Positions 33,645-45,395 of a stretch of 53,249 bases of DNA are shown piece by piece. Source of the DNA: a virus; the IMG/VR virus record IMGVR_UViG_3300040811_001901, positions 1 to 53,249 of that record. One strand, 5' to 3'. Made by a program: the position numbers and the translations under genes. Position 1 is the stretch's first letter; each line of letters begins with the position of its first letter. Below the pieces are notes generated by a model. That model ran no database searches, had not been told where the DNA came from, and was given only the letters and a program-made list of their open reading frames with translations.

Positions 33645-34488
33645 TAGCCACGAACATTATGGGTATATGTCTTTCCACCCCCTGCAGCCTTAGTTTTACG
33701 CTGCTCTGCTTTTCTTCTATTTTCTGCTTCTTCTGCTTTATGGTTTACTACTATACCTTCATAAAGCTTTGCAAAGAAAAGTATGGTTTTTACATCTTCT
33801 AAATCGTATATTTTAAATATATGCTCTAAACTTGACCATTCCTTTCCTAGATACGTTCCTGACATTCCATCCCACCGATCTGGCAGAAGTCCAAACACAA
33901 AAAATGCCACTTGAACCTCTTCCGGAAAAGCAGAAGAATCGAGTGGCATTTTTTCTGGATCAGGTTCTTGACCTAATTGTTCACAAATAAGTAAATACTT
34001 ATCTACATCTATTTGTGACGAAGATTCTTTTACTAGCCGTTCAAGTAGCCTTTGTATTTCGGCTACTTGCTGCTGGTAAAATTTTCAAGATCACCTACTG
34101 TTTCAGTTACCCAAGTATCGAAATCTCCTGCATTCTTCATTAGAAGCTCTGCATTCTCTTGAGTGTAGGCAAGCTCGTCATCTGGGTCCTGTTCAGAAAT
34201 ATCTACCAAAAGAAGCTCTTCTAGGTATCGAAATTTCAGTCCCTTCCACCCTTTGATAACTGCTTTGCAATATTCGGTTAAAAACTTTTCTTCATCAAGC
34301 TCTTCTTCAGGCTGTCGAGTTTTCTTGCTAAACTTTGTAGTTACGCACTTTTTGCGTAGCTTTAGTAGTTCTTCTCGTGCCAAGTAGCATAGGTCTACAG
34401 ACATATCAGCGCAGCCAGGGAAGTCGATTGTTACAGTTTTGCTCGGAGTCATAAGACTCGCAAGAGAAACAGGTTTTTTATCCGTCAT
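33644..34488 (-). CDS. GT-type tail assembly chaperone by -1 frameshift (about 281 aa)
   Basis: The frame of the ORF containing MPLDSSAF (Met at 33949) stays open upstream to codon AAA at 34084, inside the G gene. It has no ribosome site of its own in that stretch. A -1 slip at A AAT TTT (34084-34078) joins the first 137 residues of G (ending ENF) to YQQQVAEIQRLLE and on through the T part, giving 281 aa. The T part ends KTYTHNVRG just before the tape measure. This is the arrangement of lambda G/GT and its analogues, where GT binds the tape measure and G keeps the ratio. The T part alone is 101 aa from its own Met if read separately. Confidence 0.87.
34042..34084 (-). promoter_or_regulatory. 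Programmed -1 frameshift site with stimulatory hairpin
   Basis: On the minus strand the heptamer A AAT TTT (34084-34078, form X XXY YYZ) lies in the G frame codons GAA-AAT-TTT. Eight bases later (34069-34061) begins CAAGTAGCC, which pairs perfectly over 9 bp with GGCTACTTG (34050-34042) around a 10-base loop. The G stop TAG lies inside the stem. Confidence 0.87.
34063..34488 (-). CDS. G-type tail assembly chaperone
   Basis: A 141-aa chaperone (MTDKKPVSLASLMTPSKTV, CYLAREELLKLRKK, ELDEEKFLTEYCKAVIKGWK, FRYLEELLLVDI, ending NFTSSK). It lies between the tail tube and tape measure, the place of lambda G, and carries the -1 frameshift site near its end. Its stop (34063-34065) is read when no slip occurs. 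Its promoter lies at 34532-34560, so transcription from there starts with G/GT, then tape measure and tail tip. Confidence 0.87.
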   Translation of the reverse strand: MTDKKPVSLASLMTPSKTVTIDFPGCADMSVDLCYLAREELLKLRKKCVTTKFSKKTRQPEEELDEEKFLTEYCKAVIKGWKGLKFRYLEELLLVDISEQDPDDELAYTQENAELLMKNAGDFDTWVTETVGDLENFTSSK

Positions 34489-38731: not shown

Positions 38732-40741
38732 TTAAGCTACTACGTCGAGTCGAACTACAGATACGTCAGCTGCAGTATCAGCTACGAGCTGGTTAAAGCC
38801 CAGAGACTGAGTAGCAACAATAACGTTACGCTGGTTCATTACTTCGTAATCTTGCTCAACATTTACACCACGCAGACGTGGGATTGCAAAGTTACGAACG
38901 TTGACTGCGAGACCAACACAAGCATCTTCAGCTTCCGCAGGGAAGTTGTCAGATACGATTACGGGCGTACCATAAATCGCACCTACTTGACCGGTCAGCT
39001 TGGTAGCAACGTCAGAACCTACATCAGTGATATCGGCAAAACCGGCATCAGCGATCAGATCGTAGTAACGCTTCTGAGATACAACATATACCAGCTCATC
39101 AGGCATCATGCCATACTTACCCATCAGCTTACGGGCTGAGAGGAAGTCGGCTGCGTCTACCGCAGTAGAAGCCAGAGCAGCAGCAGATACAGAAGTATCA
39201 AACGTATTCGTGCCAGCAAGCTTAATCAGACCATCAAAGTCATCAGAGCCGCCAGTAGCTACGTGGTTCAGCAGAGCATCGTCTACAGCGCGAGCGTGTG
39301 AACGTGCAACTGATTCTACGAGCATAGGCATCAGATTGATCAGGATTTCCTCGTCAACGTGGTTATCCATCAACGTGGTTGAAATCAATCGGTAAGCCTT
39401 CAGAACTACCTGAGCAGGCTGAGGAGCAGCGCCGCCTCGAGTCTGCAAATTACCTGAAGTAGCTGCACCAGTCTGGAACGTAGCCAGACCTGTATCCTGT
39501 TGGATGGGCAGTACTTGAGCTTGAGAATTGATCTGGATCTCACGGAACGCACGAGCCAGTCGCAGTTCACGCATGATTTCCTTCTCAATTTGGCTAGATA
39601 CTTCAGTAGCGATGTTAGGAGCAGAAGATGAATAAGTTACACCAGCTTTCTCAATGATACCGCGACCATAAGAAGTGCCTTCCATGCCCTTACCAGTCAT
39701 TACACCCAGCAGGTGAGCGTGCATGAACTCTTTGCCCCACTTAGAAATGGTGTCGCCTTCTGAACGATCAGAGAATACACGCTTAGACTCACGCATCTTG
39801 GTGATTTCTTCGCTCTTCTCTTCCAGTTGCTTCTGATACGACAGAATTACTTCGTCGATCTTAGCATCCTTCTCAGACAGCTTAGCTTCGATGTCAGCCA
39901 TCAGGCGCTCAGCACCTGACTCAACACCAACGCTTACAGCAGCCTTGACTTCTTCTTCTTGAGCAGCTTTCTCAGCAGCTTCAGCGGCCGCCTTCTCTTC
40001 TGCTTCTTGAGCTGCCTTTTCTTCGGCAGCCTTTGACTCAGCTTGCTTCATAGCGATCTTAGCAGCAGTCTCCTCTGCTACTTTCTTCGCAAAAGCTTCC
40101 AAGTCGACTTCGGGAGTTTGTACTTCCGACATAATGATCTCCTCTTTCGCGGATTTTTCCGCTTCGTCCGGTGTTTCACTAGCTACCGATGAATTTTCAT
40201 CCTTAGCCAGAGACTGACCGGCTAGATCTACACGATTGGTGAAAGTTTTCTTGAACTCATTATACTCTTCCATAGAGTCAAATGACTTCGCCAGAGAAAA
40301 AGTTGCTGCTTGATTACAGGGTACGGAAACAACCGACACCTCAAACAACTCAGCATCCTTAATCTTTAATCCGTCAGTTTCCGTTAGATAATCAGCATCC
40401 TTGACTCGGAAACCAACAGAAAAAGCTCCAAGAATGCCTTCTTTTACAAGTTGCGCCACATGGTCAGGCGCGGATTTAGAAATTTTCGCCTTTAATTCAA
40501 GACCGTTTTCAGTGACTTTAAGTCCTGTTGCGCGTCCGATCGGCTTGTTATAGTCATGATTGAAAAGAATAATAGGATTCTTTTCAAAGTTGTTCAGACC
40601 ACCCTTAGTCCACGCCTCTGCGTCAATTGTATCTCCAGCACGATCAAAATCACTCGTACTCGCCATACCACAGATGTGAACTCCTCCATCATCCTCATCG
40701 AGAGCTTTGAAAGTGGAGGTAAGATTAAAAATCTTTTCCAT
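38732..40741 (-). CDS. Fused prohead protease, scaffold and major capsid protein
   Basis: A 669-aa polyprotein. Residues 1-150 are an HK97-type prohead protease: NHDYNKPIGR (His62), GAFSVGF (Ser108), ELFEVSVVSVP (Glu134). Residues about 205-320 are an Ala/Glu/Lys-rich coiled coil, as in the scaffold or delta domain of HK97-like capsid proteins. Residues about 325-669 form the major capsid protein (GLATFQTGAATSGNLQTRGG, DELVYVVSQKRYYDLIADAG, QVGAIYGTPVIVSDNFP, ending VRLDVVA). An internal ATG at residue 204 has its own strong ribosome site. GC content looks higher than in the tail genes, consistent with high expression. In most relatives these parts are separate genes. Confidence 0.92.
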   Translation of the reverse strand: MEKIFNLTSTFKALDEDDGGVHICGMASTSDFDRAGDTIDAEAWTKGGLNNFEKNPIILFNHDYNKPIGRATGLKVTENGLELKAKISKSAPDHVAQLVKEGILGAFSVGFRVKDADYLTETDGLKIKDAELFEVSVVSVPCNQAATFSLAKSFDSMEEYNEFKKTFTNRVDLAGQSLAKDENSSVASETPDEAEKSAKEEIIMSEVQTPEVDLEAFAKKVAEETAAKIAMKQAESKAAEEKAAQEAEEKAAAEAAEKAAQEEEVKAAVSVGVESGAERLMADIEAKLSEKDAKIDEVILSYQKQLEEKSEEITKMRESKRVFSDRSEGDTISKWGKEFMHAHLLGVMTGKGMEGTSYGRGIIEKAGVTYSSSAPNIATEVSSQIEKEIMRELRLARAFREIQINSQAQVLPIQQDTGLATFQTGAATSGNLQTRGGAAPQPAQVVLKAYRLISTTLMDNHVDEEILINLMPMLVESVARSHARAVDDALLNHVATGGSDDFDGLIKLAGTNTFDTSVSAAALASTAVDAADFLSARKLMGKYGMMPDELVYVVSQKRYYDLIADAGFADITDVGSDVATKLTGQVGAIYGTPVIVSDNFPAEAEDACVGLAVNVRNFAIPRLRGVNVEQDYEVMNQRNVIVATQSLGFNQLVADTAADVSVVRLDVVA
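40130..40162 (-). promoter_or_regulatory. Internal ribosome binding site and start within the protease-capsid gene
   Basis: On the minus strand AAAGAGGAG (40147-40139) stands 6 bases before ATG 40132, in frame with the protease (residue 204). A small hairpin GCGGA-AAAA-TCCGC (40162-40149) lies just upstream. It would give a 466-aa scaffold-capsid protein. Confidence 0.82.
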
Positions 40742-41052
40742 TAGTCTTCACTCTTTTCTTCTGCCGGAGCAGCCTTGCTCAGAGCTTCTAGTGGATCTTT
40801 TTTAGGCTCTGGTGCAGGTTTCGGAGCAGGTGCTGGCTCCGGTTTCTTACCCAATTCGGGGTGCTTCAATTTAAGTGCATGAGTAAGGAACTTCCATGCC
40901 TTAAAACTTCTTTTTACCGAAATAGCGTGAATAGCATCTTTCGATCCTACAATATTCATATATGATTTGTAGTCAATATCAAGAGGTAGCTCAAACTCTT
41001 TAAAGTGCTTATATGCTGTGTCCAGCACAAGTTGCTTTTGTCGAACTGCCAT
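40741..41052 (-). CDS. Small unknown protein between portal and capsid (103 aa)
   Basis: A 103-aa protein. The N-terminal 65 residues look helical (AYKHFKEFELPLDIDYKSYM, KRSFKAWKFLTHALKLKHPE). A Pro/Ala/Lys linker follows (EPAPAPKPAPEPKKDP), with an acidic end. No family recognised. It lies between portal and the capsid gene and overlaps both by one base (41052, 40741). Scaffold-like, decoration or portal-binding roles are all possible; nothing in the sequence decides. Confidence 0.7.
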   Translation of the reverse strand: MAVRQKQLVLDTAYKHFKEFELPLDIDYKSYMNIVGSKDAIHAISVKRSFKAWKFLTHALKLKHPELGKKPEPAPAPKPAPEPKKDPLEALSKAAPAEEKSED

Positions 41053-42239
41053 TAATCTTCTCCTTCTTCAATAGGGCGACCACCCTCGTCTGGATTTGTT
41101 GCACTTCCTGCAATATTTGCAGGTACTCTTAAGTCATCAAATCCTTCAATCAGCTCGAAGTTAAGTGCTTCACGAGCTTCGTTTGGACTAATAATGCCAG
41201 TATTAACAAGAGCTGAGTAATACTGTGCTTGATCTCGAAGTTCCGGCTGCAGTGCTGGAATTTCAGTCACGTCTTCGGTTAACTCAAAACCAAAATATCT
41301 TTCAAGAGCAAGGTTAATTTTTTGTACTATGGGAAGAATTGTCTCAAGGTAGTACATTCGCATATTTGGGCGAAGATTTGCATTATTACCTGAGTCAAGC
41401 ATGATCGGGGGTATACCCAGAGCTTTTAGAATAATCTTCTCATTTTCAGAAATTGCCGCTTGAAAATCTAATTCTCTGAAGTTTACATTTGAGATGGAAT
41501 CTACTTCAATTCCGCCATCAAGAATAAGAGGTCTACGACCCCCTGCATCAGGACGGTATCGGGCTGTCCAAGATTGAATCATGCGCTCTTTAATTTTTTC
41601 AGACAAGGTGTTAGGAGACTTAAGTACAAGACCCGGAACAGCTCCATTCTTAAAGAAGTTGTCTTGGAAGTCCCGCATATTCTTCATAAGAACCATTGTC
41701 CGGAGCGCAGGCTTCAATCGAGAAACTCCTCTATAGATTGAGTAGAAAGAGTTTTCCTTAATATGAATAATCTCACTTGGAGAATAATTCACAGCTTCAT
41801 TATAAGTAAACTTATCAATATAAGTTGTTTCACTTGCATGAATAGTCATTTTACTTGCAGGCAAGTGATAAAGATGTACTCCATCGAAGTAAATAAAGAC
41901 GTTTCCATCTATAATATAATCTGTAATTAGATTCCGACGAAATGTGCTAATATCCTGAAAAAGGTTTGGTTCTTTGTTCAAAAGAAGATTTACTCTTGAA
42001 CGCTTAATGCCTTTTACTACACTATTCCCAGGAGATTGTAGTCCGACTTTTACATCTATCTCTGCACAATCGTCTACAATCATATTTACGCCACGATTAA
42101 CGATTTCTAAATCTTCATACGCTCGCTCGTAGCTAAACGTAGGCTCTCGTGACGAGATAGTTTTCTCGGTAAAATATGGCTGTGCAGGATTTAACTTTTC
42201 CTCCACATCTTTATTCTGCCAAAAGTTATACCAAGCCAT
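41052..42239 (-). CDS. Portal protein (HK97 family)
   Basis: A 395-aa portal protein. Seen: NRGVNMIVDDCAEIDVKV, VNLLLNKEPNLFQDISTFRR, NLITDYIIDGNVFIYFDGV, ALRTMVLMKNMRDFQDNFFK, NGAVPGLVLKSPNTLSEK, NEKIILKALGIPPIMLDSG, YYLETILPIVQKINLALERY and GIISPNEAREALNFELIEGF, all typical of HK97-type portals. It forms the 12-fold ring through which DNA enters and leaves the head. It overlaps the HNH gene by 14 bases and the 103-aa gene by one base. Confidence 0.95.
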   Translation of the reverse strand: MAWYNFWQNKDVEEKLNPAQPYFTEKTISSREPTFSYERAYEDLEIVNRGVNMIVDDCAEIDVKVGLQSPGNSVVKGIKRSRVNLLLNKEPNLFQDISTFRRNLITDYIIDGNVFIYFDGVHLYHLPASKMTIHASETTYIDKFTYNEAVNYSPSEIIHIKENSFYSIYRGVSRLKPALRTMVLMKNMRDFQDNFFKNGAVPGLVLKSPNTLSEKIKERMIQSWTARYRPDAGGRRPLILDGGIEVDSISNVNFRELDFQAAISENEKIILKALGIPPIMLDSGNNANLRPNMRMYYLETILPIVQKINLALERYFGFELTEDVTEIPALQPELRDQAQYYSALVNTGIISPNEAREALNFELIEGFDDLRVPANIAGSATNPDEGGRPIEEGED

Positions 42240-42591
42240 GCTTTCCTCTTTGAATCTCTACCCAACGTTTTTGTTTAGGCGCTGAATGTAGTGTTGGGTT
42301 ACGCCCATAAATTGAATGCAATTTTAAGTGGTGCGCATGACATATTGTGACAGTTTCATCATACAACTCTTCAATATGCTCGTTAATAAACTCATCTCTA
42401 AAGTCCCGAATATCCTCCATGTGGTAACCTTTTTCTTTAACCCACTTTTGAAGGAGAGGACTCAAACTGTAATAGTGATGAAAGTCGAGTTCAGTATCTA
42501 CGCCACAAATGTAGCACTCTGACCCTTTCTCATACCTTGCTTTTGCTTTGTCCCGAATATACTTTACGGGATCTCGTTTTAGCTCTGTCAT
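42226..42591 (-). CDS. HNH endonuclease next to the terminase
   Basis: A 121-aa HNH nuclease: CYICG (Cys26, Cys29) and TICHAHHLKLH (Cys84, His87) form the zinc site, and DFHHYYSLSPLL (His38, His39) carries the catalytic His. The spacing is close to that of phage HNH enzymes that work with the terminase in cos-type packaging (HK97 gp74). It is the first gene behind the promoter at 42620-42648 and overlaps the portal start. An HNH at this place supports a cos-type packaging strategy but does not prove it; a homing endonuclease is possible. Confidence 0.85.
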   Translation of the reverse strand: MTELKRDPVKYIRDKAKARYEKGSECYICGVDTELDFHHYYSLSPLLQKWVKEKGYHMEDIRDFRDEFINEHIEELYDETVTICHAHHLKLHSIYGRNPTLHSAPKQKRWVEIQRGKHGLV

Positions 42592-42670: not shown

Positions 42671-43975
42671 TCAGAAGCCCGTAGAAGAAGTTTCAAATGA
42701 ATATAACGCATATCGAAGTGCATCTGCCATGTGTGATGCCATATTGTGTTTTGGTTTTTCTCGTGCTAGATTTGGATTGGGGTCCCACTGATACTGGTCA
42801 AGAGCAGAAAGACTTTCCTTGCATCTTTGGTCTACTACCAATTTATCATTGTCAACAATGCCAGCCACATGAGCAATACCATCAAGTACAGACTTCTTGG
42901 CATTTGTGGTAGTAATATCAAAGTTCTGAGCAAAGTCAAATCGAGTTTGCTGAGCCGCTGAGTCAATGAAGATATAATCAATATCCCACTTTTCCATAAG
43001 TCTACGAATCTCTGTCGCGTGTTGTTCAGTAGTTTTTTCAGCATCTAAGTACTCGTCGAGTAAATAGTACTTTTCTTCGTCCCAGTCGTACGCCAAAACG
43101 CAAAAGGCAGTGGGATCTCTATACCCCACATCAAGCCCAGCGAATATATCCATGTTTGAAATTTGGAATTCTTCCAAGTTCTCAATACACTCTTCGTGGT
43201 TAAAGTTCCAAATCTGTCCCTCATAGGTATTGAAATCGGCTTCATATTCTTGTTTGAATTCGGCTTCGGACATACTTTTTCGAGCTTCCGAGATATCGCT
43301 TTCAGACATGCGAGGATTATCCTTATAAGTTGCTCGTATCGAAGCCCACTCTGGAAATTCATCTGTAAACCCCCTATTAAAAAATTCTGCAAACCAGTTA
43401 TTTTTTCCTCGAGGAGTAGAAATAAAAAGTGCTTTTGAATTATCTTTGTCAAGTGTAGGACGTAGTGCAACATTGAAAGCTTCTTTTCCATCTGCCAACG
43501 CTGCTTCGTCAAATATAATAAGATCGTAACTTCTGCCTACACAGGAATCGACCTGATTGATGGATCCCATCCGAATGGTGGAACCGTTAGTTAGCTCAAT
43601 TACTTTATCTTTCGCATTATCCTTTGCAACCTCTAAATCAAAATGTTTGATAAGCTGTCGCTGAAGGTCGAAAGAAATCTGAGACAAGGCGTAGTTCGGA
43701 GACATAATTAATATGTGTGAACCAGGAACTAGTGATACTAGCTGCCCAATTATATTTGCGATATACGTTTTGCCTTGCCTTCGAGAAATAGCTGCCGTGA
43801 CAAAACGGTATTTATTGTTATTAATCGCATTTATGATCGCCATTTGAGACGGAAGAGGTGTAACGCCGAGTAGATCCAAATAAGGATCTACTGGAAGTTT
43901 GAGAAACCTCGTCTCAGATTGAAAATCGACAATGTGCTCGGAGATTAAATCTCTTCTACTTATTTCTACTGCCAT
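42671..43975 (-). CDS. terL: Terminase large subunit
   Basis: A 434-aa packaging motor. ATPase part: Walker A SRRQGKT (64-70), Walker B LIIFDE (152-157), coupling FISTPRG (184-190). Nuclease part: Asp282 (GLDVGYRDPTA), Asp338 (YIFIDSA) and Asp418 (HMADALRY). All catalytic residues are present. It pumps DNA into the prohead through the portal and cuts concatemers. It lies just after a small membrane-protein gene and before the HNH gene. Its partner TerS is far away, at 48400-48861. Confidence 0.96.
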   Translation of the reverse strand: MAVEISRRDLISEHIVDFQSETRFLKLPVDPYLDLLGVTPLPSQMAIINAINNNKYRFVTAAISRRQGKTYIANIIGQLVSLVPGSHILIMSPNYALSQISFDLQRQLIKHFDLEVAKDNAKDKVIELTNGSTIRMGSINQVDSCVGRSYDLIIFDEAALADGKEAFNVALRPTLDKDNSKALFISTPRGKNNWFAEFFNRGFTDEFPEWASIRATYKDNPRMSESDISEARKSMSEAEFKQEYEADFNTYEGQIWNFNHEECIENLEEFQISNMDIFAGLDVGYRDPTAFCVLAYDWDEEKYYLLDEYLDAEKTTEQHATEIRRLMEKWDIDYIFIDSAAQQTRFDFAQNFDITTTNAKKSVLDGIAHVAGIVDNDKLVVDQRCKESLSALDQYQWDPNPNLAREKPKHNMASHMADALRYALYSFETSSTGF

Positions 43976-43984
43976 GTTACCTTC

Positions 43985-44161
43985 TTATTTTTCTTTGGCT
44001 TTTCCGATATTCAATGCAAATACATCAATCCACTTATAAAACTTTGCCCATAGTTTATCATCCATAGGCGTGGGAGTTGTTGCTGCAATTGCAGAACAAA
44101 CACAACAAATTACAGGAAGTGCATATAGTATGTCAAACACTGTTAAAATAAAACTGATCAT
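43985..44161 (-). CDS. Small membrane protein before TerL (58 aa)
   Basis: A 58-aa protein. The first 25 residues (MISFILTVFDILYALPVICC) form a hydrophobic segment, then TTPTPMDDKLWAKFYKWIDV, FALNIGKAKEK is a short amphipathic tail. The ATG overlaps the TGA of the next gene (ATGA, 44161-44158), which strongly supports it as real. The start codon is followed closely by the stop of TerL's upstream region. It could be a holin, a holin partner or a spanin-like protein; the sequence does not decide. No family recognised. Confidence 0.72.
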   Translation of the reverse strand: MISFILTVFDILYALPVICCVCSAIAATTPTPMDDKLWAKFYKWIDVFALNIGKAKEK

Positions 44162-44475
44162 TTCTTACCGCTCCATGCTTGGGCACCAAAAAAGGCAGCC
44201 ACTAAGCCTGCGACAGCGACAAAGTATGTCGGTGCCATATCACCAAGAATGCTGGAAGCTTTTTCTAGCCCAGCAACATCAGCAATAACAACAGCGAAGG
44301 GATACAACAACATACCAGCAAGAGAGAACCAAGCCATATTTCGTTGTGCATCTCGCATTGCATCTTGATCTTCAAGTTCTTTACGTTTAAACTCAAGATA
44401 CAATGCCTCTTCTTCGGGACTTACTTTGCCATCCCCATTTGAATCTGCAGGATGAAAACTTTTTTCTTCACTCAT
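44158..44475 (-). CDS. Holin-like membrane protein with an EF-hand loop
   Basis: A protein of 105 aa. Residues 11-22 are DSNGDGKVSPEE, a complete EF-hand calcium loop (Asp11, Asn13, Asp15, Ser19, Glu22, with Gly16 and Val18 in place). A charged helix follows (ALYLEFKRKELEDQDAMRD), then two hydrophobic segments: NMAWFSLAGMLLYPFAVVIA (about 46-70) and YFVAVAGLVAAFFGAQA (about 83-101). The size and two membrane spans fit holins. ATG 44475 is chosen because it makes a TAATG overlap with the upstream stop. The EF-hand could make its action depend on calcium, which I infer; other membrane roles are open. Confidence 0.72.
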   Translation of the reverse strand: MSEEKSFHPADSNGDGKVSPEEEALYLEFKRKELEDQDAMRDAQRNMAWFSLAGMLLYPFAVVIADVAGLEKASSILGDMAPTYFVAVAGLVAAFFGAQAWSGKK

Positions 44476-44780
44476 TACCACTTCACCTTGTCAGCCCAGT
44501 ATGCTGCCGACATCTTGCCCTTTGCAATGTTTCTACGATGACGAGCCTTAAAAGATGCACGCTTTTTCTTCATTGCTGTAGACTCTCCTTTCCTCGGCTT
44601 TCCTGCAGTTTTTGCTCCCTGCTGACCGAAACGAATAGTCTTAATTTTTGACCCAACTTTTGCCACAACAATATGTGACTTTTTTGGATGGCTAGGAGTA
44701 CGTTTTGGTTTATTAAACCCCGGTACTCCTGCTCTCTTTAAGCGAGGGTCTCGCTTTTTACCTTTTCTTTTTGCCGCCAC
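44475..44780 (-). CDS. Conserved basic phage protein (101 aa)
   Basis: A very basic protein (about 30 Lys/Arg). The pattern PGFNKPKRTPSHPKKSHIVV, KTIRFGQQGAKTAGKPRK, SFKARHRRNIAKGKMSAA, YWADKVKW is one I recognise from a family widespread in phages and without known function. It overlaps the 97-aa gene by 23 bases and the holin-like gene by TAATG. Strong charge suggests DNA or RNA binding, perhaps packaged with the genome; this is inference. Confidence 0.8.
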   Translation of the reverse strand: MAAKRKGKKRDPRLKRAGVPGFNKPKRTPSHPKKSHIVVAKVGSKIKTIRFGQQGAKTAGKPRKGESTAMKKKRASFKARHRRNIAKGKMSAAYWADKVKW

Positions 44781-45051
44781 GTCTCATTCTCGCTTTCCGC
44801 TTGGTGAAAGTTTTCACCATAGTCGGCTTGCCACCTGGGTTACCTGCTGCTCTCTTACGACGAATCGCAGACCTTTTCTGCGCTTTTGTCATGCGAGCAG
44901 CTTTTGAAGCAGGCACACATTTAGGGTACTTTCCTTTTTTCGAAGTTTTACGGCCACAAGGCATATATCCCCCGCCCTTTTTTGGACGAGAGATATCTAC
45001 CCACTTCTCTTTAAACCATTTTGTTAAACCACCACTTGGTTTACGTGCCAT
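44758..45051 (-). CDS. Conserved basic phage protein with Cys motif (97 aa)
   Basis: A 97-aa, strongly basic protein. The core WFKEKWVDISRPKKGGGYMP, CGRKTSKKGKYPKCVPASKA, ARMTKAQKRSAIRRKRAA is a recurrent family in phages and giant-virus genomes; two Cys (CGRK, KCVP) could bind a metal. The Lys/Arg-rich tail ends RMRRGGKKKR. Function unknown. The ATG directly follows the stop of the 52-aa gene (TAAATG). It may bind nucleic acid. Confidence 0.82.
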   Translation of the reverse strand: MARKPSGGLTKWFKEKWVDISRPKKGGGYMPCGRKTSKKGKYPKCVPASKAARMTKAQKRSAIRRKRAAGNPGGKPTMVKTFTKRKARMRRGGKKKR

Positions 45052-45210
45052 TTACTTTTTCCTGCGCTTCTTCATAATGGCTGCACGAAGTGCTGGAGGT
45101 AACTTTTTCTGCTTTGCAGTCAAACCTCCCATAGACTTTTTCTTTTTACCACCGCGCTTTTTGCCTTTCATTGGCTTTTTCTTTTTACCATGTCCATAAT
45201 GTCCTGGCAT
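45052..45210 (-). CDS. Very small basic protein (52 aa)
   Basis: A 52-aa protein of which about half is Lys, Arg or Gly (MPGHYGHGKKKKPMKGKK, LTAKQKKLPPALRAAIMK, KRRKK). Its ATG (45210) overlaps the stop of the 61-aa gene (TAATG) and its TAA touches the ATG of the 97-aa gene, so it fits the coupled chain. The pattern LPPALRAAIMKKR is met in small basic phage proteins. Function unknown; nucleic-acid binding likely. Confidence 0.75.
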   Translation of the reverse strand: MPGHYGHGKKKKPMKGKKRGGKKKKSMGGLTAKQKKLPPALRAAIMKKRRKK

Positions 45211-45395
45211 TATTTACTCCCCATGCGGTATTTACCGCCTCGTGCCTTGTAAGTTTTCACAAGCCACCCATTTGCGTAAGCTGAAGGATATACCTTAAAC
45301 TTCCTCTTTGCTTCCGCTTTCACTCTCGAGTACAACTTCTTGTTTGTCGGCACTGGTTTCTTTTTTGCCGTTTTACGTCTTCGACGAGCTGCCAT
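45210..45395 (-). CDS. Conserved small basic phage protein (61 aa)
   Basis: A 61-aa protein (MAARRRRKTAKKKPVPTNK, KLYSRVKAEAKRKFKVYPSA, YANGWLVKTYKARGGKYRMG). The segment RVKAEAKRKFKVYPSAYANG and the end ARGGKYR form a conserved small family in phages and algal viruses, function unknown. It begins the chain of basic genes; GGAG precedes its ATG. Nucleic-acid binding is likely given the charge. Confidence 0.8.
   Translation of the reverse strand: MAARRRRKTAKKKPVPTNKKLYSRVKAEAKRKFKVYPSAYANGWLVKTYKARGGKYRMGSK

Follow-up and report, generated by a model that had tools for sequence, protein, structure and literature searches.

A conserved internal start predicted at the protease/scaffold junction of phage protease-capsid fusion genes

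The fused prohead protease-capsid gene of an uncultured marine phage was found to contain, between its protease and scaffold parts, an in-frame ATG preceded by a Shine-Dalgarno (SD) sequence, and this arrangement recurs throughout its fused relatives. An internal start in protease-capsid fusions is well supported by sequence comparison, although it has not been shown experimentally; very probably, the phage also makes its capsid protein alone and in larger amounts, but no expression data are available. When viewed as a single polypeptide, such a fusion poses a puzzle of stoichiometry, namely one protease per shell subunit, which a conserved internal start would resolve. For hundreds of annotated genes, other products would also have to be expected, the true main capsid protein being the short form.

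The fused gene and its putative internal start

The stretch of DNA analyzed here, referred to as the window, is the 53,249-nt virus record IMGVR_UViG_3300040811_001901. Its fused gene (38732..40741, minus strand) is an open reading frame (ORF) of 669 amino acids, in which an S78 prohead protease, a scaffold (delta) domain and a T5-type major capsid protein follow one another. These domain identities were observed as profile matches: Peptidase_S78 at residues 33-158 (E 4.9e-15), the PHROGs major head protein phrog_267 at residues 456-660 (E 1.7e-14) and, in a PDB profile search, the mature T5 capsid 5tjt for the C-terminal part (E 6.6e-50) and 8ho3, a T5-type chain of 458 amino acids, from residue 241 (E 3.8e-53). 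Since the capsid part is of the T5 type, Pfam PF05065 found no match over the window's record. The NCBIfam model NF045541 scored 45.9 bits on the window protein, covering the protease and scaffold part only, and its curated cut-off of 525 bits was not reached.

The head module lies on the minus strand in the T5 order, i.e., terminase (42671-43975), an HNH-type protein (42226-42591), portal (41052-42239), a small gene (40741-41052) directly upstream of the fused gene, the fused ORF itself, and then connector and tail genes. A T5-type head module is recognized in the S78-type protease beside the capsid with the portal upstream, and in the homology of the capsid protein to T5 pb8 by the 5tjt and 8ho3 matches; the separate protease and capsid genes of such a module are not found. 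A few other minus-strand genes of the window were noted in passing. The gene of the tail assembly chaperone (34063-34488, phrog_313) carries A AAT TTT at 34084-34078, close upstream of its stop codon; in the -1 frame, no stop is met until about 33644 and no ATG lies near the beginning. The -1 frameshift usual for tail chaperones is therefore probable here. In addition, three small, very Lys/Arg-rich proteins are encoded in a row (44475-44780, 44758-45051 and 45210-45395), possibly serving in DNA binding or condensation. A protein of 107 aa (44158-44481) that has hydrophobic segments and matches the EF-hand model PF13202 only weakly (E 0.0023, under the cut-off of that model) is possibly a holin-like membrane protein.

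The internal SD, AAAGAGGAG, is located at 40139..40147 (core AGGAG at 40139-40143) and is separated by a spacer of 6 nt (atcatt) from the in-frame ATG of codon 204 (40130..40132), both on the minus strand. The original prediction of an SD 6 bases before an in-frame ATG at residue 204 was thus exact. It had also placed this ATG at the protease/scaffold boundary. The S78 match ends at residue 158, and a long scaffold helix was predicted at about residues 214-324 in an AlphaFold model, which was poor (mean pLDDT 48.9) and was used solely for this helix; together, they put codon 204 at the domain boundary, insofar as this low-confidence model can be relied upon. Initiation there would give a 466-aa product (38732..40132, minus strand), which by translation begins with MSEVQTPEVD and comprises the scaffold (delta) domain and the major capsid protein without the protease; its length and domains match those of the separately encoded T5-type capsid precursor (458 aa). 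The further claim that the nested start would yield the shell protein itself is correct, given the T5-type major capsid identity of the C-terminal part.

The full-length start (ATG at 40739..40741, minus strand) overlaps the stop codon of the upstream gene as TAATG and is only weakly equipped, having no SD motif and an anti-SD ΔG of -2.4 kcal/mol, which is consistent with weak coupled initiation. Among the related genes, the anti-SD ΔG averaged -8.2 kcal/mol at the internal start, -4.85 at the full-length one and -1.8 at other in-frame ATGs, and the internal SD was the stronger of the two in 88 of 94 genes. It is to be noted that the anti-SD of the uncultured hosts was assumed to be the usual one. 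Given the stronger internal SD and the weak full-length start, an excess of the short form over the full-length protein is predicted, but not shown, there being no ribosome profiling or mass spectrometry.

Conservation of the junction and its hairpin

Conservation was examined in 176 unique fused genes, i.e., that of the window and those of 175 relatives, about 31-100% identical, which were gathered from a first scan, two further viral scans and one scan of prokaryote genomes. All 80 relatives of the first scan were fused and bore AGGAG-N6-ATG. Over the full set, this motif was observed exactly at the protease/scaffold junction in 174 genes, and the remaining two (L245 and L246, 42% and 31% matches in the scan) had AAGGA or AGGAG 7-8 nt before the ATG. 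A start codon occupied the junction in 176/176, M204 being invariant in the alignment (A2), and a conserved in-frame internal start with an SD at the boundary, as is characteristic of nested protease/scaffold genes, was likewise found in every one. A fused relative lacking the SD-ATG pair had been set beforehand as the case that would refute the original prediction; there was none (0/176) among the unique fused genes of this T5-type-capsid family. An SD of at least 5 nt preceded only 29 of 1321 other in-frame ATGs (2.2%) in the gene family, versus 93/93 at the junction site. Relatives L238-L245 and L247 lie on contigs of mostly marine Gammaproteobacteria MAGs and L246 on a Parcubacteria MAG contig; marine Gammaproteobacteria may be the hosts of the window phage's group, with the proviso that binning errors are likely.

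The SD covers codons -4 and -3 relative to the internal ATG, where the choice of codons is informative. Of 97 distinct contexts, 95 encoded the glutamate at codon -3 by GAG, whose gene-wide share among Glu codons was only 33%. At codon -4, AAG (Lys), CAG (Gln) or GAG (Glu) was found, such that the residue varied and the AG was constant; xAA was never seen at this codon, even though its frequency over the whole gene is similar or higher. On a tree that was built without the linker, codon -4 underwent at least 20 changes. By these comparisons, selection at the internal SD is on nucleotides. Codon bias, spacing and hairpin covariation all fell far outside their respective nulls.

The original prediction had noted a small hairpin just upstream of the SD. 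In the window, it is GCGGA-AAAA-TCCGC (40149..40162, minus strand), a 5-bp stem with an AAAA loop, and it proved to be real. It is to be stressed that this is known only because the comparison shows so; the window sequence alone would not have revealed it, as its single-sequence fold at the junction was unremarkable (z = -0.23). With a stem of 4 bp or more and an end lying 12-20 nt upstream of the ATG as the definition, a hairpin was observed in 93/93 distinct contexts, compared with a mean of 52.8 and a maximum of 66 under synonymous codon shuffling, and the mean pairing score was 13.6 against a null of 6.3 (sd 0.64), the hairpin position having the highest pairing score along the gene. In chimeras with swapped arms, i.e., the left half of one sequence joined to the right half of another, the score dropped to about 6.5 from the native 13.65, and the arms therefore covary. 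On the tree, at least 49 changes were counted in the basal pairs of the stem. Since the codon-shuffle test counts related sequences as separate, its z-value is optimistic, and the arm-swap test and the tree count constitute the safer evidence. RNAalifold on a MAFFT alignment returned a consensus stem of 3 bp only, because differences in loop length misalign the arms; the codon-shuffle and arm-swap nulls were therefore used instead. Altogether, 43 different stems were found and the loops were not conserved, which makes a sequence-specific protein target unlikely; a structural role is likely but unproven. A hairpin as a general feature was considered and rejected, since most separate genes of T5-like phages, and the other fusion families, have either none or a weak one; from the sequences compared, it is particular to the T5-type-capsid fusion family of the window.

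Other fusions and the separate genes of T5-like phages

Four unrelated or distantly related fusions were taken from genomes: L252 and L253 (ClpP plus Phage_capsid_4), L255 (S78 plus Phage_capsid PF05065) and L254 (an N-terminal domain without a Pfam match plus Phage_capsid_4). The groups tested consisted of relatives from the scans and two cultured phages, and the SD-ATG was found at the junction in 63/68 loci of the L255 group, 54/57 of the L254 group and 9/9 of the ClpP group, amounting to 126/134 over the three. An SD at other in-frame ATGs was seen in 3.1%, 5.7% and 4.5%, respectively. The junction was searched over 12, 5 and 30 codons in the same order, which makes the figure for the ClpP group the least stringent. 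Relative to the ATG, the SD of the L254 family is found in each of the three frames, and protein conservation is therefore no explanation for it. In MD8-like phage CF165a and Escherichia phage LLS, the junction likewise has an SD followed by an in-frame ATG, at codons 220 and 211, respectively. The SD-ATG was not found within the junction search range in eight loci (L289, L300, L302, L303, L331, L391, L418 and L426), and hence the rule is not absolute. At the L289 junction, the ATG is present and the SD weak; L300 and L331 have a 686-aa fused gene. L300/L331, L302/L303, L391, L418 and L426 represent either natural negative controls or another solution. Judged by domain make-up, without a tree, at least three separate fusion events are inferred, and the recurrence across different proteases and capsid families suggests repeated selection for a protease-free shell protein.

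In T5-like Demerecviridae and related Vibrio phages, the protease and the capsid protein are encoded by separate neighboring genes that follow one another in the same order. Those of Vibrio phage VCPH and Serratia phage Kamaji additionally share a frame (L081 2125-2151 and L082 2101-2121), and the gap of 15-21 nt between them holds stop codons, an SD and the start codon (ATG) of the capsid gene. This arrangement possibly pictures the state before fusion; the fused genes look, by inference, as if the in-frame stops had been lost and the ribosome-binding site kept. That T5-like genes are generally in frame over the gap was rejected, since gene coordinates supported it for VCPH and Kamaji only. 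Moraxella Mcat21 and Salmonella 118970_sal3 were also suspected as fusions and rejected, their protease and capsid being annotated as separate genes.

Proposed dual starts, competing readings and known systems

The reading we hold with high confidence is that the fused gene has two starts and that its long and short forms co-assemble, although direct evidence for the short protein is lacking. The upstream ATG, weak and coupled to the gene before it, would yield the 669-aa protease-scaffold-capsid protein, and the internal AGGAG-N6-ATG the 466-aa scaffold-capsid protein, an equivalent of the separate T5 capsid precursor and probably in excess. The two would co-assemble via their common scaffold/capsid part, whereby a minority of protease-bearing subunits would be built into the prohead, and the protease would then remove the scaffold and itself to leave a uniform shell. 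The covarying hairpin probably keeps the SD single-stranded within a coding sequence under translation. Initiation itself and the ratio of the two forms are inferences, as are the co-assembly and the role of the hairpin. It is possible, yet rather doubtful, that the hairpin, instead of being a passive spacer, actively sets the long:short ratio during infection, e.g., by refolding behind or being melted by upstream ribosomes, or by being bound by a head protein, and that, more broadly, protease-capsid fusion genes have two starts by default, contrary to the single propeptide of the published descriptions.

Other readings of the junction need to be weighed against this. The SD-ATG could be a mere relic of once-separate protease and capsid genes that is no longer used, and in the T5-like relatives, where the genes are separate, a ribosome-binding site does occupy the same place, the genes of VCPH and Kamaji even being in the same frame. 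As history, this is probably true; as an account of present function it is not, and is very hard to accept, for the SD, the spacing and the hairpin have been kept over deep divergence through compensating and synonymous changes. We consider it just as improbable that the SD-like sequence and the hairpin act as a translational pause for the protease to fold before the capsid part, without initiation. A hairpin with an SD-like element could slow elongation, and the site is exactly at the domain boundary; however, a pause needs no ATG at a fixed distance of 6 nt, yet the start codon is universal in the family, and the SD of the L254 family, in whichever frame relative to the codons, is always at initiation distance from the ATG.

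The SD-ATG might instead serve a separate internal transcript, produced from an internal promoter or by RNA processing at the hairpin, which would then sit near the 5' end and could stabilize the transcript. Promoter-like matches in the region did not exceed those in shuffles (5 as against 3.0, sd 1.8), and none was just upstream on the same strand; no terminator-like site on the strand of the fused gene and no Rfam element were detected at the junction, and this explanation of the short protein is considered improbable.

A dual start of the kind favored here has precedents. Lambda C/Nu3 and Mu-like phages provide known cases of a nested start at the boundary between protease and scaffold, and in the Mu-like PaMx73 a putative internal SD and start were reported to be kept (PMC4378225). 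Protease-scaffold-capsid genes are also already known, having been described without an internal start (PMC8508860), and gp5 of phage MD8, in whose group CF165a is listed, was described as a single propeptide (PMC9855967). In the open-access literature, to which the search was limited, no account of such a start within a protease-capsid fusion was found. NF045540, NF045541 and MD8 gp5 resemble the window protein in having protease, scaffold and capsid in one ORF; the window protein differs from them in its T5-type capsid part and falls below the NF045541 cut-off. The T5 head module (protease pb11, capsid protein pb8) has the homologous protease and capsid and the order terminase-HNH-portal-small gene-protease-capsid, and its prohead contains 775 copies of the capsid protein, from which the N-terminal scaffold domain is removed by a separate protease (PMC5292684). 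T5 differs in having two genes with a stop between them, whereas the family of the window has one ORF in all relatives.

The herpesvirus UL26/UL26.5 pair likewise gives nested protease-scaffold and scaffold products, but from separate transcripts and with a separate shell protein, and is not homologous in the feature studied. The likeness drawn originally to the nested start of lambda C/Nu3 is apt as a mechanism: in lambda C/Nu3 and Mu I/Z, as proposed here, an in-frame start at the boundary leads to two forms with a common C-terminus, a long one that bears the protease and a short one. In lambda and Mu, however, the short form is a scaffold, with a separate gene for the shell protein, whereas the predicted short product of the window carries the T5-type capsid domain and would be the shell protein with its scaffold built in.
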